This document shows positions 6,695-34,190 of a DNA stretch of 45,999 nucleotides, in pieces; positions within the stretch are counted from its first letter, which is position 1, and the number at the start of each line of letters is the position of its first letter. Both the position numbers and the translations under genes were made by a program. The notes beneath the pieces were generated by a model. That model saw only the letters and a list, made by a program, of their open reading frames with translations, had not been told where the DNA came from and searched no databases. Origin of the DNA: a virus; the IMG/VR virus record IMGVR_UViG_3300015195_000009, positions 1 through 45,999 of that record. One strand, written 5' to 3'.

Positions 6695-7501
6695 ATGTCG
6701 GTCGTAACCGAGCGACTCGAAAAAATGTGGCTGCTGAAATTGCGGCGGCTGGTTTGCTATCCCGAAATCGTAAAACGGTTGACCAATCACGAATCAATTC
6801 ATTCGGTAACCAGGTGGCTGGAGCGGAGCAATGCAGGCGGAAGACATCTTTGCAGTGAATCTTGGCGGCGCTATGTCACTGTGCTCAAGCGGGAGATCGA
6901 GAAAGCCCGGCCCAAAGTTTTAGAAGTCGAGCAACAGGCGACCGTTGCCGATATAAAAGAAGTGCAAAATATTATCGAGGAAGAAGTTGCGGAGATGCCG
7001 CTCTCGCCGCAAGGGCTGGCGTTATTTAAGCAGGTCCAGAAGGCGATGAAGACGTTGCACGCCGAGAATATGCTGAAATTCAGTTTCGTTATTCAGCAGC
7101 AACGGGTCCAGCGATTGCTCAACATGGAGAACGTTACCGGGGTGTTGGCGCGAGACGGCTACAAAGAAATCGAAACCCTAGCCAATCTCTCGGCCCAGGT
7201 ATTGCGATTCGAATTGGGAAATCTAGCGATCTTGCGCGGAACAAAAAATGGCCCACCGCCCTACGATGCGGTATACGAAAGCCAAGGACAGTCGGACTTG
7301 GCGTCGCGGGTGTCAAAATTAAGCGAAGCCGACCGGAATCTTCTAATTGCAGCGAGTTCTAAAGTCTATGACATGATTGAAGCAGAGGCGCAAAGTGAGC
7401 GTACTGAGAATCAAGGACTGGCATCTGACGCCAGCGGAGCAGAAGATTCGGCGGGCGAAGCAGGTGAAGGATTTAGTGAACCGGATGGGTCCGGACGCTA
7501 A
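6695..7501 (+). CDS. Putative terminase small subunit
   Basis: A 268-residue protein from ATG 6695 (GAGGG upstream). Residues 10-65 are basic and helical with a probable helix-turn-helix (IHSVTRWLERSNAGG, then CSESWRRYVTVLKREI). A long helical middle follows (ADIKEVQNIIEEEV; QKAMKTLHAENMLKF). The C-terminus is acidic and Gly/Ser-rich. Small terminase subunits have an N-terminal DNA-binding domain and a helical oligomerisation core, and are encoded just before the large subunit, as here. It overlaps the large-subunit gene by 107 nt. The assignment is by position and layout; sequence identity to a known family was not recognised. Confidence 0.55.
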   Translation: MSVVTERLEKMWLLKLRRLVCYPEIVKRLTNHESIHSVTRWLERSNAGGRHLCSESWRRYVTVLKREIEKARPKVLEVEQQATVADIKEVQNIIEEEVAEMPLSPQGLALFKQVQKAMKTLHAENMLKFSFVIQQQRVQRLLNMENVTGVLARDGYKEIETLANLSAQVLRFELGNLAILRGTKNGPPPYDAVYESQGQSDLASRVSKLSEADRNLLIAASSKVYDMIEAEAQSERTENQGLASDASGAEDSAGEAGEGFSEPDGSGR

Positions 7502-10500
7502 AGAGATTTTTGGCGAATTTTATCAACCCAAATTTTTCCAACCTGAATCCGCGCAATACGCGCTCAAGCAACTAACCCAAGCTGACTATCTACGCACGCC
7601 CGTAAAAATCGAACAATTTATTGACGACCCGTACTACATGGGTGGCGTGCTCCAGGGCGGCAATCTGTTTCCCCAGGTGCGCCAGGACCTGATTGATTTG
7701 TTCGACGGTGAATGGTCTGAAGTAGTTTTGGCAGGGGCAATCGGGTGGGGTAAATGCTTGAATCCAAAGACTTTAGTGTTAATGTTCGATGGCACAATAA
7801 AACAGATCGAAGACGTTTGTAAAGGCGAATTATTAATGGGTCCGGACAGTAAACCGCGCCGGATTCTTTCGGTTCGACGCGGGAATGGCCCGATGTATCG
7901 CGTGAATCCAATCAAGGGCGATTCGTTTGAGTGCAATGGCCCGCACATCCTTCCATTGAAACTTAGTCCAAGAAAGACAGGACAAGGGCACGCTGACATC
8001 GAGATGACCGCAGAGGATTTCTTGGCCCGACCTGTGTGGTTCCGCAAGAATATGGTCAAATTGTGGAAACCAAACGGAATTGATTTCGAGGATGTTAAGA
8101 CACTAGAAATCGACCCTTATTTTCTAGGGGTCTGGTTAGGCGATGGATCGAAAGCGTCGGCGAAATTTGAAATGTCTGAGTTTTGGAAAGCGGAAATCTT
8201 AGAGTGGTTACGTAATTTCAAAAGCGAAGACGTTGGCATTTCAGAAAGGTTAGAGCCGCGAAAAAAGAAAACAACCATTATTTCTTTTTCGTCAATGAAT
8301 AAAAGTTTGCGTGAACTGAACCTTCTGAACAACAAACATGTTCCACAACAATACAAAACAGCCAGCCGTCAGGCTCGCCTAGGACTCTTGGCAGGGTTAA
8401 TTGATACAGATGGCGAGTTACGGTCTTCTGGCGGCAAGGATGTCTCTGGCTACCGATACAGTTCTGTGATTAAGCAACTCTCAGAAGATTTTGCATTCGT
8501 GGCCCGCTCACTCGGATTCGCTGCATATATCCACGAAAAGAAAAAAGCGTGCCAGACTGGAGCCACGGCTATCGCGTACGAAGTAGAAATCAGCGGCGAC
8601 GTTGACCAGATTCCATGCAAAGTGAAACGGAAACGAGCGCCCAAACGACGGCAAAAAAAGAATCCACTGTACGTAGGTTTTGATATCGAGCCAATCGGCG
8701 ACGGTGAATATATTGGCATTGAACTTGATGGCGATGGGCGATTCCTGCTCGGTGATTTTACTGTTACCCATAACACCACCATGGCATATGTGGGCATTTG
8801 TTACGACCTGTATCTCGTAAGCTGTCTGCGCTCGCCTGCCAAGAAATTCGGATTGATTCCCGGAACTGGATTGGCTTTCCTAAATGTCTCTGTAAACGTG
8901 CGCCAAGCGCTCAAGATTCTGTTTGGTGGGATCAATAATTTAATAAAAAGCTCGCCGTATTTTCAGGAAAAATTCCCACCCGAGAAAAACATCAAAACCG
9001 AAATCAGGTTTCCACGCTCGGTGTCTTGCTATCCAGTAGCCGCGAACGAGCAGGCGATTTTGGGTGAGGGCGTATTCTCTGCCGTGTTCGATGAAATGAA
9101 TTTCTATAAGATCACCGAAAACTCATCGCTCAATCCGGACGGTGGAACGTACGACCAAGCCGTCATGCTCTACAACCGCATGAGCCGCCGTATCAGGAGC
9201 CGTATGAATCAACGCGGTCGCCTGCCTGGACATTTGTGGATGGTTTCGTCCTCGCGGTATCCCAACGATTTTACGGAACGGAAGAAACTAGAGGCGGTTA
9301 CCGATCCAAATATTTTCGTGCGCGAGTATGCCGCCTGGGAAACGAAGCCGACCGACAGTTTGATGAAAGAAACGTTTCGCGTCGAAGTGGGCGATGTACG
9401 TCATCGCACGCGCGTGCTTGTGCCAGGCGATGAAAATATAGACATGGAACGTGTCATCACCGTGCCCATGGATTACCGGGACGAATTCGTAAAAGACCCC
9501 GATGGTAGTGTGCGTGATTACGCGGGCATTTCGATTCTGTCCACGCATCCGTTTATCGGCAAGCGCGAAAAGATTCAGGCTATGTTCGACCGTGGAGCCG
9601 CAGCCGGACTCAAACATCCGTTCACGGCGTTTACAGTTACCTTGCAGGATGCCCGCGAATCGCTACTGGCCGAGAATCTGCATTGGATTAAACACATCGA
9701 GCGACAGTACGGCGATGTACCGATTGAAAAGAACATGCTGGCGAACGGGCCGTACTACGGGCATGTGGATTTGGCAAAAACGCAAGATGCCTGCGGTTTC
9801 GTGGTAGGGCACGTCGTTGGCTCGGTGCAGGTGGAGCGCGGGATCGGCAAAGACAGACGCAAAGAGACTAGGCCCATCATTCGCATAGATTTGGCATTAC
9901 AAATCGTAGCCCCACCCCAGGGCGAAATCGACATCGCGAAAGTGCGCGGTCTGTTTTATCAATTACGCGATTTAGGAATGCAGTTTGGAATGATTTCGTA
10001 CGACAGTTGGGGTTCCGAGGAAAGCATTCAGGCGCTGAAGAGTGAAGGATTTGAGGCCGAAGTGTTCTCCGTGGACATCGACCCTGGCGCGTACCAGGCG
10101 GCCAAGGACGCGCTCTACGACGACAGAATCGTCTCTTACGAAATGCCAATCCTACGTGACGAACTAGCAACAGTTATGATTGACATGAAGAAAAACAAAG
10201 TGGATCACCCGCCGCACGGTTGTTTTACAGGGGAGACACGGATTGCGTTACTCGATGGCACCTGCCCAACATTCAAAGAATTAGGTGAGCGATACGGAGA
10301 TGGCACTCCTTTTTGGGTTTATAGTATGGGTCAAACTGGCGTACGGCCCGGCCTAGCCAGGAATCCACGAATTACAAAAAACTCCACCCAAATTGTTGAA
10401 TTATTGTTAGATAACCACACTGTTGTGCGTTGTACGCCTGAGCATTTATTTTTATTGCTCGACGGAAATTTCAAAGAGGCAATAAATATTGGCCCAAGTG

Positions 10501-11213
10501 ATCGTTTGATGCCCCTGTATCGCAGTATTGGTACGCGGGGCGGATGGTACGATTACGAGTTTGTGTGGTGTCCGGTACGTCGCGAGCGAATTCCTACACA
10601 TCAACTAGTATCTAGGTATTTGAAGATTCCACATACAACCCCAGTTGGGCACATCATTCATCACAAAGACGAAAACAAGCAAAATAATGTTCCAGAGAAT
10701 TTAGTTTACGCAAAGCGTGGCGACCACGCCGCGTACCACGCTCGCAAACGGCACCAAGAAGACCCGGAATACGTTGCGGCCTTAAGAAAAGGGCATGAAA
10801 ATTATCGGTTGTCGGGCGGAAATGAAAAGAGCCGTGAAAATATGATGCGGTTGCAGCGCGAAGGTCGAATCAAGCCAGCGCGCGTGTCCGCACAACGTAA
10901 TCATAGAATCCTTTCAAAGCGTCTAATTGAAGTAGCAGAACCTGTCTGGGATTTAACGGTAGATAAATGGGAAAATTTCGCTCTAGCGAATGGGGTATTT
11001 GTACATAATTCCAAAGATGTTTCGGACTGCTTCGCAGCGGTTATTGCCCACGCAGAGGAAGGGTTCGCTGGCGGAGCCACAAGCCAATGGCAGGAAGTCA
11101 CGACCGTAACGCCCCAAAAACGGACGCCAATTGTCGATGAACAGGACGCATTGTGGGATAAAATAGCGCGTGGGATTCCGTTAAGCCAAGCTGAAATCGA
11201 GAAACTGAAATGA
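7395..11213 (+). CDS. terL: Terminase large subunit carrying two inteins
   Basis: A 1272-residue precursor; removing the two inteins (340 and 263 residues) leaves about 669 residues, normal for a large terminase. The ATPase Walker A, GAIGWGK-TT, is split by intein 1. Walker B is FSAVFDEMNF. The nuclease domain shows GHVDLAKTQDACGFV (first acidic motif), ISYDSWGS, and SKDVSDCFAAVI (last acidic motif), with intein 2 inserted just before the last. It cuts and pumps phage DNA into proheads. I chose GTG 7395 because AGAGG lies 6 nt upstream; TTG 7377 lacks a site. Both inteins keep the Cys and His-Asn ends needed for splicing, so an active enzyme is expected after splicing. The stop overlaps the next gene (ATGA). 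Confidence 0.95.
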   Translation: MSVLRIKDWHLTPAEQKIRRAKQVKDLVNRMGPDAKEIFGEFYQPKFFQPESAQYALKQLTQADYLRTPVKIEQFIDDPYYMGGVLQGGNLFPQVRQDLIDLFDGEWSEVVLAGAIGWGKCLNPKTLVLMFDGTIKQIEDVCKGELLMGPDSKPRRILSVRRGNGPMYRVNPIKGDSFECNGPHILPLKLSPRKTGQGHADIEMTAEDFLARPVWFRKNMVKLWKPNGIDFEDVKTLEIDPYFLGVWLGDGSKASAKFEMSEFWKAEILEWLRNFKSEDVGISERLEPRKKKTTIISFSSMNKSLRELNLLNNKHVPQQYKTASRQARLGLLAGLIDTDGELRSSGGKDVSGYRYSSVIKQLSEDFAFVARSLGFAAYIHEKKKACQTGATAIAYEVEISGDVDQIPCKVKRKRAPKRRQKKNPLYVGFDIEPIGDGEYIGIELDGDGRFLLGDFTVTHNTTMAYVGICYDLYLVSCLRSPAKKFGLIPGTGLAFLNVSVNVRQALKILFGGINNLIKSSPYFQEKFPPEKNIKTEIRFPRSVSCYPVAANEQAILGEGVFSAVFDEMNFYKITENSSLNPDGGTYDQAVMLYNRMSRRIRSRMNQRGRLPGHLWMVSSSRYPNDFTERKKLEAVTDPNIFVREYAAWETKPTDSLMKETFRVEVGDVRHRTRVLVPGDENIDMERVITVPMDYRDEFVKDPDGSVRDYAGISILSTHPFIGKREKIQAMFDRGAAAGLKHPFTAFTVTLQDARESLLAENLHWIKHIERQYGDVPIEKNMLANGPYYGHVDLAKTQDACGFVVGHVVGSVQVERGIGKDRRKETRPIIRIDLALQIVAPPQGEIDIAKVRGLFYQLRDLGMQFGMISYDSWGSEESIQALKSEGFEAEVFSVDIDPGAYQAAKDALYDDRIVSYEMPILRDELATVMIDMKKNKVDHPPHGCFTGETRIALLDGTCPTFKELGERYGDGTPFWVYSMGQTGVRPGLARNPRITKNSTQIVELLLDNHTVVRCTPEHLFLLLDGNFKEAINIGPSDRLMPLYRSIGTRGGWYDYEFVWCPVRRERIPTHQLVSRYLKIPHTTPVGHIIHHKDENKQNNVPENLVYAKRGDHAAYHARKRHQEDPEYVAALRKGHENYRLSGGNEKSRENMMRLQREGRIKPARVSAQRNHRILSKRLIEVAEPVWDLTVDKWENFALANGVFVHNSKDVSDCFAAVIAHAEEGFAGGATSQWQEVTTVTPQKRTPIVDEQDALWDKIARGIPLSQAEIEKLK
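7755..8774 (+). mobile_element. Intein 1 with LAGLIDADG endonuclease, in Walker A of TerL
   Basis: A 340-residue intein. It starts with Cys (CLNPKTLVLMFDGTIKQIED, block A) and ends with VTHN before Thr of the extein. Two endonuclease motifs, YFLGVWLGDGS and LLAGLIDTDGEL, are the paired LAGLIDADG helices of a homing enzyme. NGPHILPL resembles block B. Insertion lies between GK and TT of the ATP-binding loop, so TerL cannot bind ATP until splicing. Conserved active-site codons are a usual intein target because loss of the insert is then rarely neutral. Confidence 0.93.
10221..11009 (+). mobile_element. Intein 2 with HNH endonuclease, in the TerL nuclease domain
   Basis: A 263-residue intein. 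It starts with Cys (CFTGETRIALLDGTCPTF, block A), has VRCTPEHLFLL (block B, with the usual T-x-x-H), and ends with NFALANGVFVHN before Ser of the extein. The endonuclease is a different class from intein 1: GHIIHHKDENKQNNVPENL matches the HNH pattern H-H-x-D-x-N-x2-N-N-x-P-E-N-L. The insertion splits PPHG from SKDVSD, next to the catalytic Asp of the nuclease motif. All terminal residues needed for splicing appear intact. Confidence 0.92.
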
Positions 11214-12490
11214 TTAACATTGGCCAAGAACGAAGGTTGCGCCGCAATGGATCGGAGGTACGGTTTCGGTTTGGTTTTCCGCTCTCGCTCGTCGTCCCAA
11301 TGAGGTCAGGTGTTGAAGCTGAAAACGAGGCCGTGCTGGAAGCCGCTTTGCGTGGTCGTCCTGATATTGCCAACGATATGCGCTCTCACGGAGAAACTGC
11401 ATTTTTGGTTTCTTACAGTCGCCCATCTCGCGATTGGCTAGAAGTATCTATCGACGCTCGCCAGATTCGGGCACCACGACGAACCGCTATACCTGAAATG
11501 CCGCAAGTAACGCAACAGCCCCAAGAACTTATTGATATGATGCTACCGCCACTTGAACCAGGTACAGACCTGCGCACTATTGATATTCAGGCACATTTGG
11601 TTGATAACGCCGCAAGGGGTGGGCCGCTCGTTGAGCGACTGTTCGATTTTGCCGTAAGGAACGATCCATCGTGTGAGTCAATTCGACAATATTATTTGAA
11701 TACAGATACTTTGGCCTACCATGTCGTTTACGTTACTCGAATACCGTACAACCGCAATACTCATGTTTGGCAACAGCGGACTTTTACTGCAAGCCAAACG
11801 TCCATAAACCAAACCTGGCTTCCCGGCAATTTAAGAACATCCGAAGAGCGAGCGATCTACCTTTGTCGTCTAAATGATTTATATTTCCATCACATGATTA
11901 GCGTTGGCCATGCGCATAGTCATGCGAGCGGACACGGGGGCGAACTATACTGCGTGACCTATGCCGCACTTGTGCCGACGCGCATATCCGCTCCCGCTCC
12001 CGTACTTGCGCCGCCCAGTATGGTGACATCTACGGTCACGACTACAAATCTCCCACCGAATTACCCGAACACTTGGTTCATTCCCCCGCTGCCCTCGCCG
12101 CCTAACAACGAAGAGACATTGCGAGCTATGGGCGCTTTGGGGATGGACGTAGACGCAGCCAATTCCGCCCTGGAAGAGCTTTCGCGCTCCATGCGCATAT
12201 CCGGCGAATCGGTGGATGAGATGGCTAGGCGGGTGCGCGACCTGATAGAGAGCGAGCGCCCTGTCCCGTCACTATCCAGAGAGCATGAGGCTTTGGTTGC
12301 CGCCGACACCGCGCTCGTACTTTCCAGCCGCAGCAATAGACGCCAAGCTCGCATTGCAAAGGAAAAAGTTGCCCAGGAGTTAGTTGAAAAACTCAAGGAA
12401 AAATACCCCGTAAAAAAGTTCGACAAGAGACCCAAACTCTTGGAAGTCGAAATTCCGTTGCCCCGAAAGTCCAGGGGCGATATACTGTAA
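11210..12490 (+). CDS. Tagged protein 1 (EIPxPRKxRG C-terminal tag), multi-domain
   Basis: A 426-residue protein whose ATG 11210 overlaps the terL stop. The N-terminal module (MINIGQERR; RGRPDIANDMRSHGETAFLV; SYSRPSRDWLEVS) resembles the starts of tagged proteins 2 and 6. A second module ends in YHVVYVTRIP, like the YIRN ends of later members. A His-rich segment (HHMISVGHAHSHASGHGG) and a Pro-rich linker follow. A helical part, ALEELSRSMRISGESVDEMARRV, resembles a helix pattern I recall from phage proteins. The last 17 residues are LLEVEIPLPRKSRGDIL. It is the longest member of the array and lies directly after terL, so a late or virion role is possible. No function is recognised. Confidence 0.7.
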   Translation: MINIGQERRLRRNGSEVRFRFGFPLSLVVPMRSGVEAENEAVLEAALRGRPDIANDMRSHGETAFLVSYSRPSRDWLEVSIDARQIRAPRRTAIPEMPQVTQQPQELIDMMLPPLEPGTDLRTIDIQAHLVDNAARGGPLVERLFDFAVRNDPSCESIRQYYLNTDTLAYHVVYVTRIPYNRNTHVWQQRTFTASQTSINQTWLPGNLRTSEERAIYLCRLNDLYFHHMISVGHAHSHASGHGGELYCVTYAALVPTRISAPAPVLAPPSMVTSTVTTTNLPPNYPNTWFIPPLPSPPNNEETLRAMGALGMDVDAANSALEELSRSMRISGESVDEMARRVRDLIESERPVPSLSREHEALVAADTALVLSSRSNRRQARIAKEKVAQELVEKLKEKYPVKKFDKRPKLLEVEIPLPRKSRGDIL

Positions 12491-12529
12491 GCAGTTCATG
12501 CGTTTAGTGGTTGACAGGGATGGCTTACC

Positions 12530-12952
12530 GTGTTGAAAGTTGGCCAACAAAGAATTGTTATAGCCCGTGGCTGGATCACAACCCGTATATACGAATTCGA
12601 CATCCAACTACTCCGCGTGCGGCACGCCCTAAACCTCAATAGCGCCCATACACGCCAATTAGAGAACGAAACGGTCGAGCGGATTGCAGCACAGCAACGG
12701 CCTGATATTTTTAATCAAATCCGCGCCAATAACCGAATTCCAAAATTGTTCCGGTATCGGCGCAACGATAAAGCATTTATCTCTGTAAAAATTGGCGGAA
12801 TCAGCCCCCATGGCATCGCATCTATGATCTATCCCGACCTGAACCTAGACCGATCCGCCAAGAAGGCCGCATCGGTCAGAAAAGCAAGCAAGCCCAAATT
12901 TCTAGATGTTGAGATTCCGCCCGCGCGGAAGAGTCGAGGTTCCGTTCTATGA
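12530..12952 (+). CDS. Tagged protein 2
   Basis: A 140-residue protein with a GTG start at 12530 (AGGGA about 10 nt upstream). The N-terminus MLKVGQQRIVI and the central ERIAAQQRPDIFNQIRANNR are close to the first module of tagged proteins 1 and 6 (M-x-x-I/V-G-Q/E; R-PDIF-x-x-I/V-R). A basic Lys/Arg/Ser linker precedes the tag FLDVEIPPARKSRGSVL. It is separated from gene 1 by 39 nt, the only non-overlapping junction in the array, and overlaps gene 3 by ATGA. Its function is unknown. Confidence 0.66.
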   Translation: MLKVGQQRIVIARGWITTRIYEFDIQLLRVRHALNLNSAHTRQLENETVERIAAQQRPDIFNQIRANNRIPKLFRYRRNDKAFISVKIGGISPHGIASMIYPDLNLDRSAKKAASVRKASKPKFLDVEIPPARKSRGSVL

Positions 12953-13185
12953 ATCCCAGAAATGACGCAATGGAAGAACTAAATGCATTCCGAAGGCTAG
13001 ATATGGGAGTTTCCGATATTCAGAAACTTATCAAGGAACTGGATGGCGAACTAGATGACATGGTCGCCGCCATCGCTCATGGTATAGGCAAAAAACAAGA
13101 GGCCGCTCCGCCACCACCGACCGCTCCACCGTTACTTGAAATCGAAATCCCAGAGCCAAGAAAGCCACGGCACAGCATCCCATGA
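12949..13185 (+). CDS. Tagged protein 3 (short, helical)
   Basis: A 78-residue protein from ATG 12949 (4-nt overlap; GAGG of the upstream tag codons 9 nt before). Residues 5-48 are helical and acidic (MEELNAFRRLDMGVSDIQKL, then IKELDGELDDMVAAIAHG). A Pro/Ala linker and the most divergent tag, LLEIEIPEPRKPRHSIP, follow. It lacks the beta module of its neighbours, so the tag appears on unrelated folds, which argues that the tag is a separable unit. Confidence 0.64.
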   Translation: MNPRNDAMEELNAFRRLDMGVSDIQKLIKELDGELDDMVAAIAHGIGKKQEAAPPPPTAPPLLEIEIPEPRKPRHSIP

Positions 13186-13535
13186 GCATAACCACAAGTT
13201 GCAGGCTGAAAGAGGAATGGATTACGGGCTTTACGGAATTGCCCTTCGACCGCGCGGAAGTAAGGGTCGTTATTCCTGGGAAGGCTTTTGATGAGTTTTG
13301 CAATACAAGGGAGTTTTCGTCATACGAAGTACCGGAATTTATACAGTTCTACGATGATTGCTTTGAAGTATTAGTGGGCGTGAATTTCTGCACATATCTC
13401 GACGAGTCCATAAAATCATCGTCTATTGAGATAGAGTACGTTAGAAATCTACGTCTACTCCAGGCTCCAGAAACACCGACGACATTGGAATTGGAGATTC
13501 CCCCACCGCGAAAGAGCAGAGGCAACGTGCTATGA
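13182..13535 (+). CDS. Tagged protein 4 (beta module)
   Basis: A 117-residue protein from ATG 13182 (4-nt overlap). The module E-V-R-VVIPGKAFDEF ... EFIQFYDDCFEVL ... IEIEYVRNLRLL recurs in proteins 5, 6 (C-terminal half), 7 and 8. A Pro/Thr linker then leads to TLELEIPPPRKSRGNVL. There is no signal peptide, membrane helix or enzyme motif. Confidence 0.66.
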   Translation: MSITTSCRLKEEWITGFTELPFDRAEVRVVIPGKAFDEFCNTREFSSYEVPEFIQFYDDCFEVLVGVNFCTYLDESIKSSSIEIEYVRNLRLLQAPETPTTLELEIPPPRKSRGNVL

Positions 13536-13897
13536 TTCGCGACGTTCTGCATCCCGTGCTCGCCAAATGGGTTACTCACTACGAGGAAGTTCCCAATGGG
13601 GCGGAAATCACTCTTGTCATTCCCGATGGTTACTTTGATGAGTTTTTAACAAGATCAATAACGCTCGGTTTTACAGAAAACATAAAGCAATTCCTGTTGG
13701 GTTATGACCCATGGCTGGAGCGTATCCAAGCCGCGTCTGAGCACATGCTCAAATCCAACATCGCCATTTCGTATTTCCGGAACGGTCGCTTAAATCCACC
13801 ATTCAAAATGCCGTATAGAGACTTCGTTGGCGATGCCAATAAAATTTATGAATTAGAAATCCCACCGCCGCGCAAGGGCAGAGGAAGTGTCCTGTGA
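13532..13897 (+). CDS. Tagged protein 5 (beta module)
   Basis: A 121-residue protein from ATG 13532 (ATGA overlap; AGAGG in the upstream tag codons 9 nt before). It begins LHPVLAKWVTHYEEVPNGAE, then ITLVIPDGYFDEF, IKQFLLGYDPWLERI and IAISYFRNGRL, and ends YELEIPPPRKGRGSVL. LHPxLxKW and DPWxE also occur in the C-terminal half of protein 6, so these two are the closest pair in the array. Confidence 0.66.
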   Translation: MIRDVLHPVLAKWVTHYEEVPNGAEITLVIPDGYFDEFLTRSITLGFTENIKQFLLGYDPWLERIQAASEHMLKSNIAISYFRNGRLNPPFKMPYRDFVGDANKIYELEIPPPRKGRGSVL

Positions 13898-14901
13898 TTG
13901 AAATCGGAGAGCGTTGTGTCGTCAATACGGAGAGCCAAAACTCGCAATCTCGTCTTTTCGTATTTGGATTCAATTGGGAGTTTATTGAACGACGTTTAGC
14001 TATCCGCCCCACAAGGCTTCAACCAGGGACGCTGGAGCGTATTCAAATTATCTCTGATTGTGCGCATCAAGTGCGCCCCGATATTTTTGACGAGATCGTA
14101 AGAATTGGCCGCGAGCCAACGCTGCTCCATTATTCCAGACCCAGTGAACGTCAAATCGAAGTGGTCTACGAAGCCCGCGTACCTGCTCTCTTAAACCAAA
14201 TCGCGAACGAAGTATCACTGAATCACCTGGTCGTGCTTACCCGTGATGCGCTAGTGAACCCCGCCGACCGTTATATTGATTTTTCGTACTCTGAGTTTCT
14301 GACTCGCCGAAGGACGGAAAACACGCCAGCGGTGGTAGTCCTTGTTGATATTTGCAACGAAGCGTTTAGAGTGACGAATACTAGACCAGACCAGATTGTT
14401 AAATGTGTTTGGGCGAGCCACAGGCCAGATATATTTGGGGCCTTTGTACGCATACCTGATACACAACGCATACCTGCTACAAACCGACAATTAGGCCGAG
14501 ATTTCAGCGACCCGCCACGATGGCCTTTACATCCCGACCTTGAAAAATGGGCCGAGGAATGGAAACCATACCCTGAAAATCGTACCGAAATAACTTTCAA
14601 CATTCCTCGGAGCGAGGTCGCAGCGTCCGTTTGGCCATCAGGAAATCAGGAATTCAATAACGACTTTTACGAGCGATTAAAACAATTTATACGAGCACGC
14701 GACCCGTGGTACGAAACACTTATGGATTGTGGGATAAACCTGAAGATGGGTCGTGACGCATCCGAGATGATCTTTTATTTCCGCGTTATTTATATACGAA
14801 ATCTAAGCCTGATTCCCGCCTTTGAAATTCCACCACCGCCGCCAGGTAGATACGAACTGGAGATTCCGTTGCCGCGCAAAGGACGGGGGAACGTCCTGTG
14901 A
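13894..14901 (+). CDS. Tagged protein 6, fusion of both array modules
   Basis: A 335-residue protein with a GTG start at 13894, overlapping the upstream stop (GTGA). The N-terminal part, MIEIGERCVV ... ERIQIISDCAHQVRPDIFDE ... LLHYSRPSERQIEV, is the first-type module seen in proteins 1 and 2. A partial second copy (SHRPDIFGAFVRIPDTQRIP) follows. The C-terminal part, LHPDLEKWAEEW ... EITFNIP ... LKQFIRARDPWYETL ... VIYIRNLSL, is the beta module of proteins 4 and 5. The tag is YELEIPLPRKGRGNVL. It shows that array members recombine as modules while keeping the tag. Confidence 0.68.
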   Translation: MIEIGERCVVNTESQNSQSRLFVFGFNWEFIERRLAIRPTRLQPGTLERIQIISDCAHQVRPDIFDEIVRIGREPTLLHYSRPSERQIEVVYEARVPALLNQIANEVSLNHLVVLTRDALVNPADRYIDFSYSEFLTRRRTENTPAVVVLVDICNEAFRVTNTRPDQIVKCVWASHRPDIFGAFVRIPDTQRIPATNRQLGRDFSDPPRWPLHPDLEKWAEEWKPYPENRTEITFNIPRSEVAASVWPSGNQEFNNDFYERLKQFIRARDPWYETLMDCGINLKMGRDASEMIFYFRVIYIRNLSLIPAFEIPPPPPGRYELEIPLPRKGRGNVL

Positions 14902-15221
14902 CAAGGGAGCGTCCTACCGAAACCTACAAAGTCGTCCCTAATGATGGTTCATGTTCCGATAAAAACGTGGTTACCGTTTTGATTTCCGACGACTATATCG
15001 ACAATGTAATTATGGAACGGAACTTAAAAGGTTGGCTTGAAGGCTTAGTGTCCGTAATCCGAGAACACGATAAATTTTTCGACAAAGTTACGAACGTGAG
15101 CATAGTGTCTTACAGTGACCGCCACACTGTATCGAGAGCCGTGTATCGGCGGCACACATACCCACCGCCCGTAGGCGTAGAAATTCCGTTACCCAGGCGG
15201 AGTCGAGGGAATGTCCTGTGA
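14898..15221 (+). CDS. Tagged protein 7 (divergent beta module)
   Basis: A 107-residue protein with a GTG start at 14898 (GTGA overlap; GGGGG of the upstream tag 8 nt before). VVTVLISDDYIDNVI, LVSVIREHDKFFDKV and AVYRRHTYPPP align with the beta module (I-P-x-x-x-F-D-x-F; F-I-x-x-D-P-W; YIRN). The tag is VGVEIPLPRRSRGNVL. Its function is unknown. Confidence 0.65.
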   Translation: MTRERPTETYKVVPNDGSCSDKNVVTVLISDDYIDNVIMERNLKGWLEGLVSVIREHDKFFDKVTNVSIVSYSDRHTVSRAVYRRHTYPPPVGVEIPLPRRSRGNVL

Positions 15222-15544
15222 GCGTGATATACGATAGAAATTTCGAATTGCGAGCCATTCAAGCCGATAAGTTTCAGTACATCGTCACAGTTCACATATC
15301 GAATGCATCTAAATCACTGTTAGAGCTATGCCGATCACACGATTCCGAGTTTGTGGAAATAAAGGATTGGAAGTATTTGGGGAACGAAACGTTTAGCGTT
15401 ACGTACATTCGTCGCTTCTCGCCCAAAGGTACTTTTGAACACGATTGGACAGCCGTGCCCAACCCGCCCACCATACCCGATCCACCGCCCTTACTGGAAA
15501 TTGAAATTCCTTTGCCGCGTAGAGCGAGACGCAATATACTCTAG
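15218..15544 (+). CDS. Tagged protein 8 (divergent beta module)
   Basis: A 108-residue protein with a GTG start at 15218 (GTGA overlap; GAGGG of the upstream tag 8 nt before). FQYIVTVHISNASKSLLELC and ETFSVTYIRRFSP align with the beta module. A Pro-rich linker and LLEIEIPLPRRARRNIL end it. It is the last array member; a free-standing HNH gene starts 6 nt downstream. Confidence 0.65.
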   Translation: MSVIYDRNFELRAIQADKFQYIVTVHISNASKSLLELCRSHDSEFVEIKDWKYLGNETFSVTYIRRFSPKGTFEHDWTAVPNPPTIPDPPPLLEIEIPLPRRARRNIL

Positions 15545-20759: not shown

Positions 20760-20845
20760 GGGGAGCGCTACTGAATGGTCGGTAACTGGTCTTGAAAACC
20801 AGAGTACCCGCAAGGGTAAGGGTTCGAATCCTTCGCTCCCCGCCA
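20760..20845 (+). tRNA. tRNA-Ser (UGA)
   Basis: The acceptor GGGGAGC (20760-20766) pairs with GCTCCCC (20835-20841), followed by G and an encoded CCA. The anticodon arm CTGGT-CTTGAAA-ACCAG gives anticodon TGA. The long variable arm (TACCCGCAAGGGTA) and T-arm GGGTTCGAATCC are typical of serine tRNA. All stems look intact. Confidence 0.93.
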
Positions 20846-20899
20846 ATTTCCCTAAAGGCTTTCCACCACAACCATACCCGCAGTCGTAACCCATTTTTC

Positions 20900-20973
20900 T
20901 GGCAGATCGACTAACGGTAAGTCGTTGGGCTTTGAATCCAACTATGAAGGTTCGAATCCTTCTCTGCCATCCA
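20900..20973 (+). tRNA. tRNA-Gln (UUG)
   Basis: The acceptor TGGCAGA (20900-20906) pairs with TCTGCCA (20963-20969), followed by T and CCA. The anticodon loop CTTTGAA in the stem TTGGG/TCCAA gives anticodon TTG. The T-arm is GAAGGTTCGAATCCTTC. It appears functional. Confidence 0.92.
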
Positions 20974-20978
20974 GTTAT

Positions 20979-21054
20979 TCCGCGATAGTGTCAACGGTAG
21001 CACGGCGGACTTTTAATCCGTTCGGTACAGGTTCGAATCCTGTTCGCGGAACCA
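20979..21054 (+). tRNA. tRNA-Lys (UUU)
   Basis: The acceptor TCCGCGA (20979-20985) pairs with TCGCGGA (21044-21050), followed by A and CCA. The anticodon arm GCGGA-CTTTTAA-TCCGT gives anticodon TTT. The T-arm is ACAGGTTCGAATCCTGT. It lies 5 nt after tRNA-Gln, consistent with one transcript. Confidence 0.92.
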
Positions 21055-21056
21055 GT

Positions 21057-21132
21057 CGGGACGTAGGGGAGCGGCTACCCCACTTGCCTTGGGAGCAAGG
21101 AATCGAGAGTTCAAGTCTCTCCGTCCCGACCA
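21057..21132 (+). tRNA. tRNA-Pro (UGG)
   Basis: The acceptor CGGGACG (21057-21063) pairs with CGTCCCG (21122-21128), followed by A and CCA. The anticodon arm CTTGC-CTTGGGA-GCAAG gives anticodon TGG. The T-arm is GAGAGTTCAAGTCTCTC. It is the last of the cluster. Confidence 0.92.
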
Positions 21133-21990: not shown

Positions 21991-22307
21991 CTGTACAATC
22001 TGGCCGCGAAAAAAGCCGAAGAAAACGATTCGACGGGGAGACTTACGACGAAACCCGCGACGGGGACAGGCTCTACTCTCAACTTATAAAAGTAAAAAAT
22101 TTCTTGGTAAAGAGATACCCGCTATGGGTAGGCTTGAAGCAGATTGCCACTGCTATTCATGCGCCAGATTCCAGTATTCCGGCAATTAGTGCGCGGTTGA
22201 GAGATTTACGAAAACCGCATTATGGCGGCTACACCATAGAACGGCGCTATGTTCATCGTGGGCTATTTGAATATCGCCTTTTACTGAAAGAGCCTTCGGA
22301 TGTCTAA
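21987..22307 (+). CDS. Winged-helix-like small protein
   Basis: A 106-residue protein from ATG 21987 (ATGA overlap; GTG 21978 is possible). After a very basic N-terminus, YPLWVGLKQIATAI, SSIPAISARLRDLRKPHYGG and YTIERRYVHRGLFEYRLLL fit helix-turn-helix plus wing. It overlaps the HerA-like gene by 8 nt and may work with it, for example in DNA recognition. Confidence 0.58.
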   Translation: MTVQSGREKSRRKRFDGETYDETRDGDRLYSQLIKVKNFLVKRYPLWVGLKQIATAIHAPDSSIPAISARLRDLRKPHYGGYTIERRYVHRGLFEYRLLLKEPSDV

Positions 22308-23964
22308 AATAGTTTTGGGTACGAGCGACAACGAGCAAATTAAACTTGATTTGGATGTATTGCTGCGCACGCACTTGCTGATTTGCGCGAGCACTGGCGG
22401 CGGGAAAAGCTATCTCATTCGCCGCATCGTTGAACAAGCAGCCAGCAAGATTCCAATTATCATTGTGGACCGAGAGGGTGAATTCGCCACGCTCCGTTCC
22501 AAGTACGACTTCGTTCTGGTTGGGCCTGGGGGTGAAACGCCTGCCGACCCACGTTCTGCCAAACTGGTAGCACATACCCTTCTGGATATTGGCGCGTCCG
22601 CAGTGTGTGACCTGTTCGAAATGAAATCTGAAACACGGCACGAATGGGTGAAGAATTTCTACGAAGCGCTGGCTGATGCGCCGAAACGTCTATGGGGTCC
22701 GACGATTGTAATTTTGGACGAAGCGCATACGTTCGCTCCGGAAAAAGGACAGGGCGATTCGCCTGCCTATGGCGCGGTTACGGACTTCGCTGGAGTCGCG
22801 CGCAAGCGTGGCCATGGCTGCATCTTCGCCACGCAGCGGCTTTCGAAGTTGAGCAAGAACGCCACGGCGGAAATGTACAACCAGGCCGCAGGGCCGACCG
22901 CGCGGCAGGCCGACCGAGACCGAGCCGCGTATGAAATGGGTATTTCTGGGAAAAAAGACATCAACGAATTCGCGGATACGTTGCGCACGCTGGAGCCTGG
23001 AAATTTCTTTTTTCAAGGCCGCGCTATCGCAATGGACCGCGTATTGGTAAAGATCGGTCCAGTCGAGACCGAGCACGGACAGCAGGGCACGAAGTACACC
23101 GCAAAGGTTCCACCCACGCCCGAAAAGATCAAGGCACTCCTGCCAAAGTTAGCCGACCTGCCGAAGATGGCCGAAGAGAAGGCAAAAACCGAAGCGGAGT
23201 TGCGCTCCGAGATTCGTTCGCTCAAGGCGCAATTACGCGCCGCGCCCGTAGCTACAAAAGAGATAAAGGTAAGCGATCCAAAAGCCATTGAGCGAGCGGT
23301 AGATGCTGCCACGCGAAACTTACTGGGAACGCTCCGTAAAATTGGCACGCTTGCTGGAAATATTTGTGAATTCACTAAAGACAAAGTGTCCAGTGATTCA
23401 ACTGCAAAAAAGGTAGTCATTCGTGAAGACGTTCAACCAGTAAATCGCGTGCGCGTTCATGTAGATTCAGATGGCGATGCCCATTATTCAACTAGCAAGG
23501 ATCGTTTGGGGTCGGGAGCCAAGCGCCTGCTTGCCGCCGCCGCGCAGTGGTATCCAAACGGAATACCTGGCGGGCAGTGGCGTGCCCATGCTGGACTCAA
23601 GAAATCAGGCACGTTCACCACGTACGTGTCACGACTGGTATCGTCTGGGCTGATTGTGAAGCGGGATAATCTGTTCTACGCGACAGAGGCGGGAGTCGAA
23701 TCCGCAGGCGAATCGCGTAACATGGCTCCGTCCAGCACTGAGGAAGTGTTGGACATCTGGCGGCCCAAACTAGGTGCTGGACCCAACAAAATCTTAAATG
23801 TGGTATTACAAATGCAAGAACTGCCCAAGAAAGAACTGGCTGAACTGTCCGGATTTGCCGAAAGCGGAACGTTCACTACTTATTTGAGTCGTCTGAAAAC
23901 GGCACGCTTAATTCAAGTCAATCACGGAATCGTTTCGGTGGACCGGGAGACACTACTCTTATGA
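22300..23964 (+). CDS. HerA/FtsK-like ATPase (DUF87) with duplicated winged helices
   Basis: A 554-residue protein. LLICASTGGGKSYLIRR (about 27-43) is Walker A, IVDREGEF follows, and TIVILDEAHTFAPEKG (about 135-150) is Walker B. FATQRLSKLSKN is the sensor segment of HerA/FtsK motors. A coiled coil (AEEKAKTEAELRSEIRSLKA) follows. The C-terminal part holds two similar winged helices with KSGTFTTYVSRLVSSGLI and ESGTFTTYLSRLKTARLI, an internal duplication. HerA-type hexamers translocate double-stranded DNA. In this phage it might serve replication, recombination or counter-defence; TerL already covers packaging. Confidence 0.82.
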   Translation: MSKIVLGTSDNEQIKLDLDVLLRTHLLICASTGGGKSYLIRRIVEQAASKIPIIIVDREGEFATLRSKYDFVLVGPGGETPADPRSAKLVAHTLLDIGASAVCDLFEMKSETRHEWVKNFYEALADAPKRLWGPTIVILDEAHTFAPEKGQGDSPAYGAVTDFAGVARKRGHGCIFATQRLSKLSKNATAEMYNQAAGPTARQADRDRAAYEMGISGKKDINEFADTLRTLEPGNFFFQGRAIAMDRVLVKIGPVETEHGQQGTKYTAKVPPTPEKIKALLPKLADLPKMAEEKAKTEAELRSEIRSLKAQLRAAPVATKEIKVSDPKAIERAVDAATRNLLGTLRKIGTLAGNICEFTKDKVSSDSTAKKVVIREDVQPVNRVRVHVDSDGDAHYSTSKDRLGSGAKRLLAAAAQWYPNGIPGGQWRAHAGLKKSGTFTTYVSRLVSSGLIVKRDNLFYATEAGVESAGESRNMAPSSTEEVLDIWRPKLGAGPNKILNVVLQMQELPKKELAELSGFAESGTFTTYLSRLKTARLIQVNHGIVSVDRETLLL

Positions 23965-24430: not shown

Positions 24431-24676
24431 ATGAAAAAGAAAATCTGGAAGTGGCTCACAATCGTAATATCGGCGATAGGCATCATTATTGCCGTGGATT
24501 ACATTTTTAAGCTAATCAGCGCCCCGAGCGACACGTCGTTTTACATTGGACTGTTTCTACTCGCCGGAATTGTGACAATTGCGATTGTAATCGTTGTCAC
24601 GATGTACGGGAAGTACCGCGACCAACTAGCCGAAGAGGCAAAGAAAAATGGAGTTGAACATGAAAAATTTCTGTAA
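24431..24676 (+). CDS. Small membrane protein with two helices
   Basis: An 81-residue protein. ATG 24431 is chosen over ATG 24389 because AGGGGAAG stands just before it. MKKKIWKWLTIVISAIGIII and FYIGLFLLAGIVTIAIVIVV are membrane helices, and the tail is charged. It overlaps the SPFH lipoprotein gene by 17 nt, so the two may act together at the membrane. Confidence 0.6.
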   Translation: MKKKIWKWLTIVISAIGIIIAVDYIFKLISAPSDTSFYIGLFLLAGIVTIAIVIVVTMYGKYRDQLAEEAKKNGVEHEKFL

Positions 24677-25511
24677 TTTCGCACTGCTATTGCTGGTAGG
24701 AGTTTTCAGTACAGGCTGCATGACTCGCATCGCCCCTGGACACGTAGGAATCAAGATAGATTTGGCAGGCTCGAATCGCGGAGCCGAGAATCTACCGATC
24801 CGCACGGGTTGGATTATCTACAATCCGGCATCCTCTCAAGTGGTGGAGTATCCCACGTTCGTACAGACCGCCGTGTGGTCACACAGCGTATCCGAAGGGC
24901 ATCCGGTAGACGAAGAAATCACGTTTACGACAAAAGACTCGATGGTTGTCAGTGTGGACGTTAATTTGAGCTACTCGTTGCTCCAGGAGCGTGTGCCTGC
25001 GTTCTATGTCAAGTTCCGATCCGATGATGTGGATTCGTTCACGCACGGGTTTTTACGGAACGTGGCTCGCGATTGTTTCAACGAGACTGCCGGAAAGTAT
25101 AGTGTCGAGCAGGTAATGGGCGATAACGCTCCGTTCCTACTGGACGCGCGGAAGTGCTTGCAGGATCGAGTAGCTGCCATTGGCGTAAGCATCGAGCAGT
25201 TCGGGATTATCGGTGCGCCGCGACCGCCGCAGGGCGTGATAAACGCCATCAATCTCAAGGTTCAGGCGCAGCAAATTGCCCTGCAAAAGCAAAACGAGGT
25301 GATGCAGGCCGAAGCGGACGCCAAAAAACAGATCGCTACCGCTCAAGGGCAGGCCGAATCTAACCGCGTCTTGACCCAAAGTATTACGCCCCAATTGGTT
25401 GAATGGCAGAAATTGGCCGTTACCGACCGCTGGATTAGTCGCTGGAATGGGAGTATGCCCCAGGTCTCAACCGGAGCACAGCCTGGCCTGTTATTGAATC
25501 TCGAAAAATAA
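24660..25511 (+). CDS. SPFH/Band 7 domain lipoprotein
   Basis: A 283-residue protein from ATG 24660 (GGAG 8 nt upstream). MKNFCNFALLLLVGVFSTGC is a lipoprotein signal with the lipid-bearing Cys at residue 20. An SPFH domain follows: GHVGIKIDLAGSNRG, WIIYNPASSQVVEYP, TFTTKDSMVVSVDVNLSYSL and ERVPAFYVKF, ending in the Ala/Gln-rich coiled coil QKQNEVMQAEADAKKQIATA. SPFH proteins form membrane ring scaffolds and control proteases such as FtsH/HflB. A phage copy may protect a phage factor from proteolysis or alter the envelope; this is inference. Confidence 0.82.
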   Translation: MKNFCNFALLLLVGVFSTGCMTRIAPGHVGIKIDLAGSNRGAENLPIRTGWIIYNPASSQVVEYPTFVQTAVWSHSVSEGHPVDEEITFTTKDSMVVSVDVNLSYSLLQERVPAFYVKFRSDDVDSFTHGFLRNVARDCFNETAGKYSVEQVMGDNAPFLLDARKCLQDRVAAIGVSIEQFGIIGAPRPPQGVINAINLKVQAQQIALQKQNEVMQAEADAKKQIATAQGQAESNRVLTQSITPQLVEWQKLAVTDRWISRWNGSMPQVSTGAQPGLLLNLEK

Positions 25512-31785: not shown

Positions 31786-31865
31786 AATCCCATATTTTAG
31801 ATTGACAGTTTCTGGGCTTGCGGCCATGCTTACCCCGCATCCCTAAAGCGCGTTCCAAACTTATT

Positions 31866-33662
31866 GTGAGCGTAACCAACACGAATCCGCTACAAGACCC
31901 CATCAACCCACAAACGGGCGGCACTACAGTTTTCGGAAAAGTCATCAACAAGATTAAGGATTTATTCACGGACGATCCGAGCGTTGAACAAGTTCCGCTC
32001 GAAACTTCGTTTGGTACGGACGCTGAATCACGCGGATATGGCGGGGCTGACTGGAAAGCGGACAGCCGCAGCTTGTCCGCCTGGGCGTATGACAGGATGC
32101 GCCTTGAAGCAGGCCGCCTTGCCGCATACACAGATTACGATTTAATGGACTCCGAGCAGCCGGAAGTCAGTGCCGCGCTCGATGTCATTGCCGAATTCTC
32201 AACCCAGAGCGACGATCCAAAAAGCGAAACCTTCACGATTCATTCCGAAGACGAAGAGCTTGCCAAATACCTGAATGAAAAAGTGGGGCTGTTAGGTTTG
32301 GATCGTAAGGTGACCCCGACCTGCCGCGAAATCGCCAAGTACGGATGCGCTTTCTGGGAAATGGTAGCCGATGAAAACGGCGAAGTAATGGACGCGGAGC
32401 CGCTTTCGGCAACCAGCATGAGGCGCAACGAGGACCGCTATGGACGCCTGAAAGACGAGGCGTTTACCCAGGTGGACCCGCAATCGAGCCAACCCATTGC
32501 CAAATTTGCATCCTGGCAGATTGTTCATGGGCGCTACGACAAAATCCATGGACGCATTTATGGGAGCAGTTTGCTGGAGCCGGGCCGCGCCGTTCACAAG
32601 AAACTGCAAATGCTCGAAGAGGGTTTGGTCATTGGACGCATGTACCGCTCGCACATGCGGTACATCTTCAGCATTCCGGTTGATGGTATGTCCGCCGAAG
32701 CGGCCAAGATTTATCTCAATGACATGCGCAAGCAGCTTCGCAAAAAAGAGCGCTTCAATCCCACTACCGGAAAACTGGAAACACAAAATTCCCCCATCAA
32801 CGCTGAGGAAGATTTCTATATTGGCGTGCGCAAAGAAGGCGTCGCGGGCGGAGTGCAAGCCATTCAAGGCCAGGGAAATCTCGACCAGATTGCCGACGTG
32901 GAATACCTGCAAAATAAATTATTCGCCGTGCTCAAAGTTCCCAAGGCGCTGCTTGGATTCGAGCGAGACGTGAATGCCAAGGCGACACTTACCGAGCAGG
33001 ATGTGAATTTTGCGCGTACGCTGCGCCGGATGCAGCAAGTCGTGGGCGATATGATTCACGAAACGTTACGGCGCGTCATGGTCTTGGATGGCATTGACCC
33101 ACTGACCGCGCCTGCATGGGAAGTGGTGATGCCGCCTGTCTCGACTACGGACGAACTGCGTCAATGGCAGACAGAGGAATTGAAGGCGAACGTGGCGCTC
33201 ATCTACGGCCAGAAATTGCCTATCGTGGATAAAGAATACATTTTCAAAACAATTCTTGATCTTTCTTCCGAAGAAATATCCAGACTCATGTCGTTGCCGC
33301 CAGAGTCGGTGGGTATAGAAACAATGCCTATCCCGGCACCTAGTGGGTTTGGCACCGCTGGCGGCGGTTCGGTTGGGATCACGCCAGGAACCGAACCTAA
33401 GCCAGCTTCACCACAAGCCAATACACCTTTTGCCAAAACACAACAAGAAATTGAAATTCCTGAGCACGAAAGCGATGAAAGATTCGTCATACGGATGCGT
33501 GAAGCGCTCAATCTAAACATCCATGAGCATATTGGCGAAGGTGAGTTAAAATTGGCACGGATGGTCCGGGAAGCCCACGACATGTTTGGCGAGATCGAAT
33601 TGGATCGCGATTCTTTTGTGGGTGCGCTACGTAAATCCAGAAACGGGCTGGAGCGTAAGTAA
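31866..33662 (+). CDS. Portal protein
   Basis: About 598 residues from GTG 31866 (a TTG at 31818 would add 16 residues; neither has a clear ribosome site). YTDYDLMDSEQPEVSAALDV, FWEMVADENGEVMDAEPLSA, IVHGRYDKIHGRIYGSSLLE, FSIPVDGMSAEAAKIYLNDM and VLKVPKALLGFERDVNAKAT, then LTEQDVNFARTLRR, follow the T4-type portal pattern (gp20-like; wing, stem and crown). The portal is the dodecameric DNA channel of the capsid vertex and docks TerL. Genes of other kinds separate it from terL by about 20 kb, which is unusual. Confidence 0.86.
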   Translation: MSVTNTNPLQDPINPQTGGTTVFGKVINKIKDLFTDDPSVEQVPLETSFGTDAESRGYGGADWKADSRSLSAWAYDRMRLEAGRLAAYTDYDLMDSEQPEVSAALDVIAEFSTQSDDPKSETFTIHSEDEELAKYLNEKVGLLGLDRKVTPTCREIAKYGCAFWEMVADENGEVMDAEPLSATSMRRNEDRYGRLKDEAFTQVDPQSSQPIAKFASWQIVHGRYDKIHGRIYGSSLLEPGRAVHKKLQMLEEGLVIGRMYRSHMRYIFSIPVDGMSAEAAKIYLNDMRKQLRKKERFNPTTGKLETQNSPINAEEDFYIGVRKEGVAGGVQAIQGQGNLDQIADVEYLQNKLFAVLKVPKALLGFERDVNAKATLTEQDVNFARTLRRMQQVVGDMIHETLRRVMVLDGIDPLTAPAWEVVMPPVSTTDELRQWQTEELKANVALIYGQKLPIVDKEYIFKTILDLSSEEISRLMSLPPESVGIETMPIPAPSGFGTAGGGSVGITPGTEPKPASPQANTPFAKTQQEIEIPEHESDERFVIRMREALNLNIHEHIGEGELKLARMVREAHDMFGEIELDRDSFVGALRKSRNGLERK

Positions 33663-33665
33663 GCC

Positions 33666-34190
33666 ATGCGTACAATTGATTTGAGGGGGAAGAAATTCGG
33701 ACGCCTGACGGTTTTACGGAAGACTGGATTTTTAATATCAGGGAATCAACGGTGTATTTTATGGTCGTGCTTGTGTGTTTGCGGTCAACGTCGCAGACTA
33801 AGAGGGGATAGCCTGCGCGCAGGGCTAACCAAAAGCTGTGGATGTTTGAACGTAGAACGCACTCGTAAAATGGGACGCGCTAACACGATCTTAGCACGTA
33901 CGCACGGACATTGTAGCAAGGGGCATTATTCTCCAGAATACTTCTCTTGGCGTTCGATGATTCAACGATGCACTAATCCCAAATCGCGTAGTTGGAAAAA
34001 CTACGGCGGGCGTGGAATCAAAATCTGCCAACGCTGGCTTAAATTTATCAATTTTTTGTCCGACATGGGAACACGACCGCGTGGTACAACACTAGACCGC
34101 ATCAACAATAACGGAAATTACAAACCACCTAATTGCCGATGGGCAACGTGGGTTCAGCAAAATCAGAATCAACGAAAGCGAGCAGCATGA
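33666..34190 (+). CDS. Putative homing-type endonuclease (DRINNNGNY family), copy 2
   Basis: A 174-residue paralogue of the protein at 18895-19404. Shared blocks are L-x-G-x-x-FGRL-x-V, SCGCLNVE, YFSWRSMIQRCTNPKS ([15 protein letters not shown] in copy 1), [12 protein letters not shown] and [20 protein letters not shown]. It lies 3 nt after the portal gene and overlaps the following gene by 4 nt, inserted between two genes that probably work together. This fits a free-standing homing endonuclease. Confidence 0.7.
   Translation: MRTIDLRGKKFGRLTVLRKTGFLISGNQRCILWSCLCVCGQRRRLRGDSLRAGLTKSCGCLNVERTRKMGRANTILARTHGHCSKGHYSPEYFSWRSMIQRCTNPKSRSWKNYGGRGIKICQRWLKFINFLSDMGTRPRGTTLDRINNNGNYKPPNCRWATWVQQNQNQRKRAA

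Follow-up and report, generated by a model that had tools for sequence, protein, structure and literature searches.

The IMG/VR virus record IMGVR_UViG_3300015195_000009 was analysed over its whole length of 45,999 bp (hereafter the window). Its terminase and T4-type portal genes led us to judge it to be from a tailed phage, and it is probably a fragment, because its terminase relatives are mostly 80-95 kb. Eight consecutive plus-strand open reading frames (ORFs), g1 to g8, span positions 11210-15544, each of them where an earlier sequence-only reading of this DNA had placed it. Six of the seven junctions between them are 4-bp stop/start overlaps (ATGA or GTGA), so that the eight ORFs are almost certainly translated as one operon. 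All eight products terminate in a version of the same 17-residue peptide, LEIEIPLPRKSRGNVL, referred to here as the tag (Table 1).

Table 1. Genes of the tagged array, their C-terminal tags, and the terminase and portal genes (SD, Shine-Dalgarno sequence)
Feature	Position	Strand	Description
g1	11210..12490	+	426 residues; family-A domain (residues 1-~90), two further poorly predicted stretches, helical region, tag
g1 tag	12437..12487	+	LLEVEIPLPRKSRGDIL; no overlap with a following start codon; leave-one-out score 43.7 bits
g2	12530..12952	+	140 residues; family-A domain, then tag
g2 tag	12899..12949	+	FLDVEIPPARKSRGSVL; codons contain SD (GAGG) and ATGA start of g3
g3	12949..13185	+	78 residues; short, probably helical body, Pro-rich linker, tag
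g3 tag	13132..13182	+	LLEIEIPEPRKPRHSIP; most divergent tag; weak SD for g4 (-1.7 kcal/mol)
g4	13182..13535	+	117 residues; family-B domain, then tag
g4 tag	13482..13532	+	TLELEIPPPRKSRGNVL; contains SD and ATGA start of g5
g5	13532..13897	+	121 residues; family-B domain, then tag
g5 tag	13844..13894	+	IYELEIPPPRKGRGSVL; contains SD and GTGA start of g6
g6	13894..14901	+	335 residues; family A (residues 1-~97), weak partial A-like repeat, family B (residues ~208-303), tag
g6 tag	14848..14898	+	RYELEIPLPRKGRGNVL; contains SD and GTGA start of g7
g7	14898..15221	+	107 residues; remote family-B member, then tag
g7 tag	15168..15218	+	PVGVEIPLPRRSRGNVL; contains SD and GTGA start of g8
g8	15218..15544	+	108 residues; body without detectable relatives, Pro-rich linker, tag
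g8 tag	15491..15541	+	LLEIEIPLPRRARRNIL; no overlap with a following start codon
Terminase large subunit	7377..11213	+	Interrupted by two inteins; overlaps g1 start by 4 bp
Portal protein	31818..33662	+	Portal_T4, gp20-like; Pfam E 2e-51

The tag is built around the core E-[ILV]-E-I-P-x-P-R-[KR]-x-R, in which Glu5, Ile6, Pro7, Arg10 and Arg13 are invariant, position 4 is always Ile, Leu or Val, and position 11 is always Lys or Arg; each tag has four to five basic residues. The consensus proposed from sequence alone holds for this core in all eight proteins but is too strict towards the end, since Gly14 occurs in 6/8 tags and the last Leu in 7/8, the g3 tag ending in HSIP and the g8 tag in RRNIL. 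The shared peptide is C-terminal throughout; N-termini are common only within one group of bodies (family A, below). The same reading had put the tag at the extreme C-terminus after a Pro-rich linker. The position stands in all eight cases, but a linker clearly rich in Pro precedes the tag in no more than about half of the proteins (g3, g6, g7, g8 and partly g4), those of g1, g2 and g5 being charged or mixed.

The significance of the likeness was assessed by a leave-one-out test, in which a position matrix made from seven tags scored the eighth, with 17,869 C-termini of other loci as background. The tags scored 30-45 bits, while the highest background scores were 6.4-8.8 bits (z 9.2-11.8), which excludes chance similarity and confirms the original observation of eight neighbouring genes with a common C-terminal peptide. 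No other ORF in the window bears the tag, and a generic scan for ORF pairs with a common C-terminus inside each of 84 loci found no comparable array. The only pairing in the relatives to score comparably in that scan is of two adjacent phage ORFs (L062:7461-9750; common C-terminus NPATAAQWVLSEFNAAEFGVKRTL), which are probably whole-gene paralogues.

For the 28 pairs of tags, the proportions of synonymous (pS) and nonsynonymous (pN) differences, estimated by the Nei-Gojobori method, were 0.82 and 0.28, the two tag halves being alike (pS/pN 0.81/0.26 and 0.84/0.32); the invariant Arg10 is encoded by six different codons. The tag is thus under strong, long-term selection as a peptide, as had been proposed from its diverged synonymous codons, and this selection is old. 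Because synonymous sites are saturated, the tag copies must themselves be old, and recent duplication, gene conversion or a DNA cassette does not explain their likeness; pairwise DNA identities are 41-69%. The bodies behave differently: in nine alignable paralogue pairs, body pN was 0.46-0.60 (20-34% identity) versus 0.07-0.32 (56-88% identity) for the tag, which was the better conserved part in 9/9. The tag is the constrained part of these proteins and the bodies are the free part.

There is also a DNA-level component. At five of the six overlapping junctions the Arg-Gly codons of the tag (AGAGG, CGAGG or CGGGG) form the SD of the next gene, with predicted duplexes of -5.9 to -10.2 kcal/mol. 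The exception is the g3 junction, where His replaces Gly and the duplex falls to the value in Table 1. Gly14 is kept at all five good-SD junctions and lost in g3 and g8, and translation may account for part of the Arg-Gly conservation. It cannot account for LEIEIPxPRK, a stretch located upstream of the SD, or for g1 and g8, whose tags overlap no start codon. Conservation at the DNA level, confined to overlapping starts, was likewise not what we found: pS is about 0.8 throughout. As a separate observation, the g1 and g8 tags, the only two without an overlapping start, both contain a sigma-70-like promoter sequence, TTGCC(C/G)-N17-TATACT (12458-12486 and 15512-15540), that includes the rare Ile codon ATA; sigma-70-like sites number 12 in the region versus 11.5 expected, so that the match inside the tag may be due to chance.

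The bodies were said to differ, and this is true of g3, g8 and the rest of g1, but two paralogous families cover six of the eight proteins. Family A comprises g2 and the N-termini of g1 and g6 (blastp E 1e-5 to 3e-4 in a small database). Family B comprises g4, g5 and the C-terminus of g6 (E 2e-9 to 2e-4), to which g7 is remotely related (hhalign P 8e-4). There is weak evidence that g6 contains another A-like repeat, which is truncated (P 0.008), and g3, g8, and the middle and end of g1 showed no similarity to other array bodies. AlphaFold2 models based on paralogue alignments gave a confident beta-beta-alpha-alpha-beta-beta domain for A (in g6 and g1) and for B (in g6), the family-A domain being the only confident part of the g1 model. 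A and B share this predicted topology; their profile comparison gave P 0.45, which does not establish homology between the families.

The tag therefore terminates several architectures: A-tag, A-x-helical-tag, A-A'-B-tag, B-tag, helical-tag and g8-tag. This differs from ordinary paralogy, in which all eight bodies would be homologous and the tag would lie inside the fold: there are two families plus the unrelated g3, g8 and remainder of g1, so that the tag is not the end of one domain common to all bodies, and it is predicted to lie outside the folded domains. Its predicted local distance difference test (pLDDT) scores were low (about 52-61 in g6 and about 40 in g1), which is consistent with a disordered, exposed tail. 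Such predicted disorder and exposure also fit the proposal that the tag resembles sorting, docking or degradation signals. None of the eight proteins had a significant match in Pfam, PHROGs, NCBIfam or PADLOC, and Foldseek found no match to either model at E<=0.001; weaker likenesses to lambda gpU, trigger factor and collagenase domains were disregarded. No signal peptides were seen by eye on the tagged proteins.

The genomic setting indicates that the array is accessory although it is placed among head genes. We fetched 80 terminase relatives and located the portal gene on the same locus in 17. The portal starts 0.2-1.6 kb after the terminase in these 17, compared with 20.6 kb in the window, where the intervening stretch holds the tagged array, an HNH gene, tRNAs, glycosyltransferases, a HerA-like ATPase and a Band-7 protein. 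Since relatives have near-adjacent terminase and portal genes and no array, the array lies outside the conserved head-gene core.

Relatives of the tag and bodies were sought in IMG/VR, GTDB genomes, GenBank phages and plasmids, collections from which records near-identical to the window may be left out. Translated searches (tblastn) of GenBank phages with g1 and g6 gave no match; g6, an alignment termed A2 and family A found no relative among IMG/VR viral contigs; and the A2 alignment gave 148 pattern matches in GTDB genome contigs, of which 0 were confirmed. Degenerate DNA patterns for the tag gave 0 and 13 matches in IMG/VR viral contigs, all 13 being due to chance or internal to unrelated proteins. 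A 20-residue tag query found nothing in phages and plasmids, and neither did a PDB sequence search with the tag. Family A, family B and the tag were all absent from the terminase locus of the terminase relatives. The whole records of 41 terminase relatives showed no array, an empty answer that is weak alone, but the same profile recovers the array in the window's own record. The array is at present an orphan.

The arrangement nonetheless has one good precedent, which was overlooked when it was stated that no phage system with such an array was known. The T4 internal proteins Ip1-3 have no homology except for an N-terminal leader that directs capsid packaging; once injected, they inhibit GmrSD restriction enzymes, a different one in each case (PMC12373910; PMC3012670; PMC9026906). 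Like the T4 internal proteins (IPI, IPII, IPIII and Alt), the tagged proteins form a set of small phage accessory proteins whose bodies are diverged or unrelated and which have just a short terminal peptide in common, a pattern that is borne out here by the pN values of tag and body and by the unrelated g3 and g8, and the window phage likewise has a T4-type portal.

Our best explanation for the whole, which we hold tentatively, is as follows. The eight genes would be an operon-like, tandemly expanded and fast-diverging accessory family, and the tag an exposed docking peptide consisting of a beta-prone LEIEIP, a Pro/basic PxPRKxR and a hydrophobic end, through which every product would bind one common partner. 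This partner would most likely be in the assembling head (the scaffold or core, the capsid inner surface, or the portal). In that case the tag would bring about packaging of the proteins in the virion, and they would reach the host together with the DNA, each then acting on its own, for instance to counter different host defences. The parts of this proposal are not equally secure. That the tag docks on one partner is fairly probable, because recruitment to a common site is expected to yield just this, a label under constraint on bodies that diverge freely. A head location for the partner is a possibility that we favour with reserve, because the array lies among head genes, the portal is of T4 type and the T4 precedent exists; delivery together with anti-host activity is more doubtful. 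The array may, with some hesitation on our part, represent an undescribed phage sorting system, namely a C-terminal 17-residue code on an open-ended, tandemly duplicating family with one phage-encoded receptor, independent of the T4 capsid targeting sequence (CTS).

Several findings weigh against this proposal. The T4 CTS is N-terminal, about 10 residues long, and removed by gp21 after [LI]-x-E. The window peptide, in contrast, is C-terminal, has 17 residues and has no known sequence similarity to it, and such a cleavage site is not conserved among the tags: L/I-x-E occurs only at the start of those of g1, g3, g5 and g8, and the invariant Glu5 alone is not diagnostic. The array also differs in comprising eight genes that overlap in a single row, and it does not belong to the T4 CTS family, although it may work in a similar way. 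A pure capsid tag would have no obvious need for the conserved hydrophobic C-terminus. No body matched known internal or anti-defence proteins in library searches, and on the 46-kb fragment no gene for a major capsid protein, a scaffold or a prohead protease was identified. Lastly, no relative of the tag or the bodies was found in any collection searched, an outcome that the sequence-only reading had itself named as refuting its interpretation. Little weight attaches to this lack of recurrence, since the bodies are missing as well and even the closest relatives found share no more than about 40% identity in terminase. Overall, that interpretation is partly supported.

Should the tag prove to be a packaging or docking code, sets of delivered phage proteins could be recognised by sequence in uncultured phages, just as the leader made possible for the T4 internal proteins, and a portable peptide would be available for attaching proteins to a phage particle or loading them inside it. 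The tag would then also show that a label of this sort can sit at the C-terminus and extend across eight genes or more as the bodies diverge, a pattern suggestive of an arms race that bears on the bodies rather than the label.

Encapsulin cargo-loading peptides offer a second comparison, being short and C-terminal too; carried on a flexible tail, they dock cargo of diverse kinds within an HK97-fold shell (PMC8346489). Their consensus is SDGSLGIGSLKRS (PMC8346489), unlike that of the window tags, and the cargo in these bacterial systems is enzymatic, each shell usually taking one or a few cargos; neither a shell gene nor a major capsid gene was identified in the window. PEP-CTERM, LPXTG and type IX secretion system C-terminal domain (CTD) signals similarly place a single terminal signal on many different proteins, but the window tags have no transmembrane stretch, no LPXTG-like or PEP motif and no 70-80-residue CTD. 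A membrane sorting signal was rejected for lack of a hydrophobic stretch, and a PDZ-type end because the last residue is not invariant. Separately, the locus of an uncultured phage among those scanned encodes two proteins with PEP-CTERM-like sorting signal ends (L055:6770-7484, EPASMMLLGSGLLAGARYARRRKK; L055:12619-13510, EPTSMVLLGSGLALFARKLKARKQ).

Instead of docking on a separate partner, the tag could serve self-assembly, as a donor strand or clasp inserting into the beta-sheet of neighbouring array proteins, which would then form a hetero-oligomer or filament. The alternation of hydrophobic and acidic residues in the first half of the tag resembles an edge strand, the predicted domains of A and B have sheets that could be extended, and co-transcribed genes with overlapping ends favour joint assembly. 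We nevertheless consider this unlikely: a conserved acceptor groove is doubtful with acceptors at 20-34% identity while the tag is at 56-88%, g3 lacks such a domain, and the tag is undocked in the AlphaFold2 monomer models, which do not probe intermolecular docking.

An equally improbable possibility is that all eight proteins bind the same host factor via the tag, each body having its own activity. Although no similar motif was found in 84,980 GTDB genomes (at the sensitivity used) or in solved structures, short, disordered and strongly conserved terminal motifs often bind one partner, and the accessory location of the array, among homing endonucleases, tRNAs, glycosyltransferases, the HerA-like ATPase and the Band-7 protein, would suit such a role.

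The chances are slimmer still that the tag is a degron, its basic and hydrophobic end (PRKSRGNVL, RRARRNIL) acting like ClpX C-motif 2, as in MuA (RRKKAI) and YbaQ (RAKKVA) (PMC9775585), and marking short-lived proteins or delivering them to a protease. The tag is at the extreme C-terminus, its last 6-8 residues do resemble C-motif 2 (PMC9775585) in having basic residues followed by a small or hydrophobic C-terminus, and 7/8 tags end in R-x-R-x-x-[VI]-L, with a terminal Leu. C-motif 2, however, needs only the last few residues, which leaves LEIEIPLP unexplained; the invariant residues of the tag are internal, in a core that includes EIPxP, and the g3 tag ends in SIP, with a terminal Pro.

A nucleic-acid- or terminase-binding tail, whose basic half would bind DNA, RNA or the packaging motor and so concentrate the proteins on the phage genome, ranks no higher in our estimation. 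The basic residues of each tag and the direct continuation of the operon from the terminase gene speak for it, but the acidic Glu5, along with Ile6 and Pro7, sits in the most conserved part, which is unusual for a plain basic DNA-binding tail, and relatives with a homologous terminase have no array. Finally, that the tag has no separate function, being a by-product of the DNA (either an in-frame reading of an SD/ATGA translation-coupling element or what is left of a gene end copied not long ago), is highly improbable and largely refuted for the tag core: good SDs, overlapping stops and the pattern of Gly14 loss agree with it, but LEIEIPxPRK upstream of the SD is conserved only as protein, with high pS in both halves, g1 and g8 keep their tags without overlap, and the DNA identities given above exclude recent copying or gene conversion.

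Some further features of the window are recorded here. One of the two terminase inteins has a LAGLIDADG endonuclease and the other an HNH endonuclease. A four-tRNA cluster, Ser(tga), Gln(ttg), Lys(ttt) and Pro(tgg), lies at 20760-21132, and genes for a HerA/DUF87-type ATPase (22300-23964) and a Band-7/SPFH lipoprotein-like protein (24648-25511) lie between terminase and portal. The portal contains QEIEIPEHE (33447-33473), 71 residues before its C-terminus, which is the only [EDQ][IVL][EDQ][IVL]P outside the tags in long ORFs of the window; as a clue to mimicry it was rejected, being a single post hoc match that is absent from the relatives' portals inspected. Adjoining the portal gene, 34133-37630 encodes a 1165-residue protein with zeta-toxin kinase and PI3/4-kinase-like domains, repeated GHWxTxxGHHxxI motifs and, by eye, an ADP-ribosyltransferase-like stretch; from its sequence, it looks like a multi-domain packaged effector.

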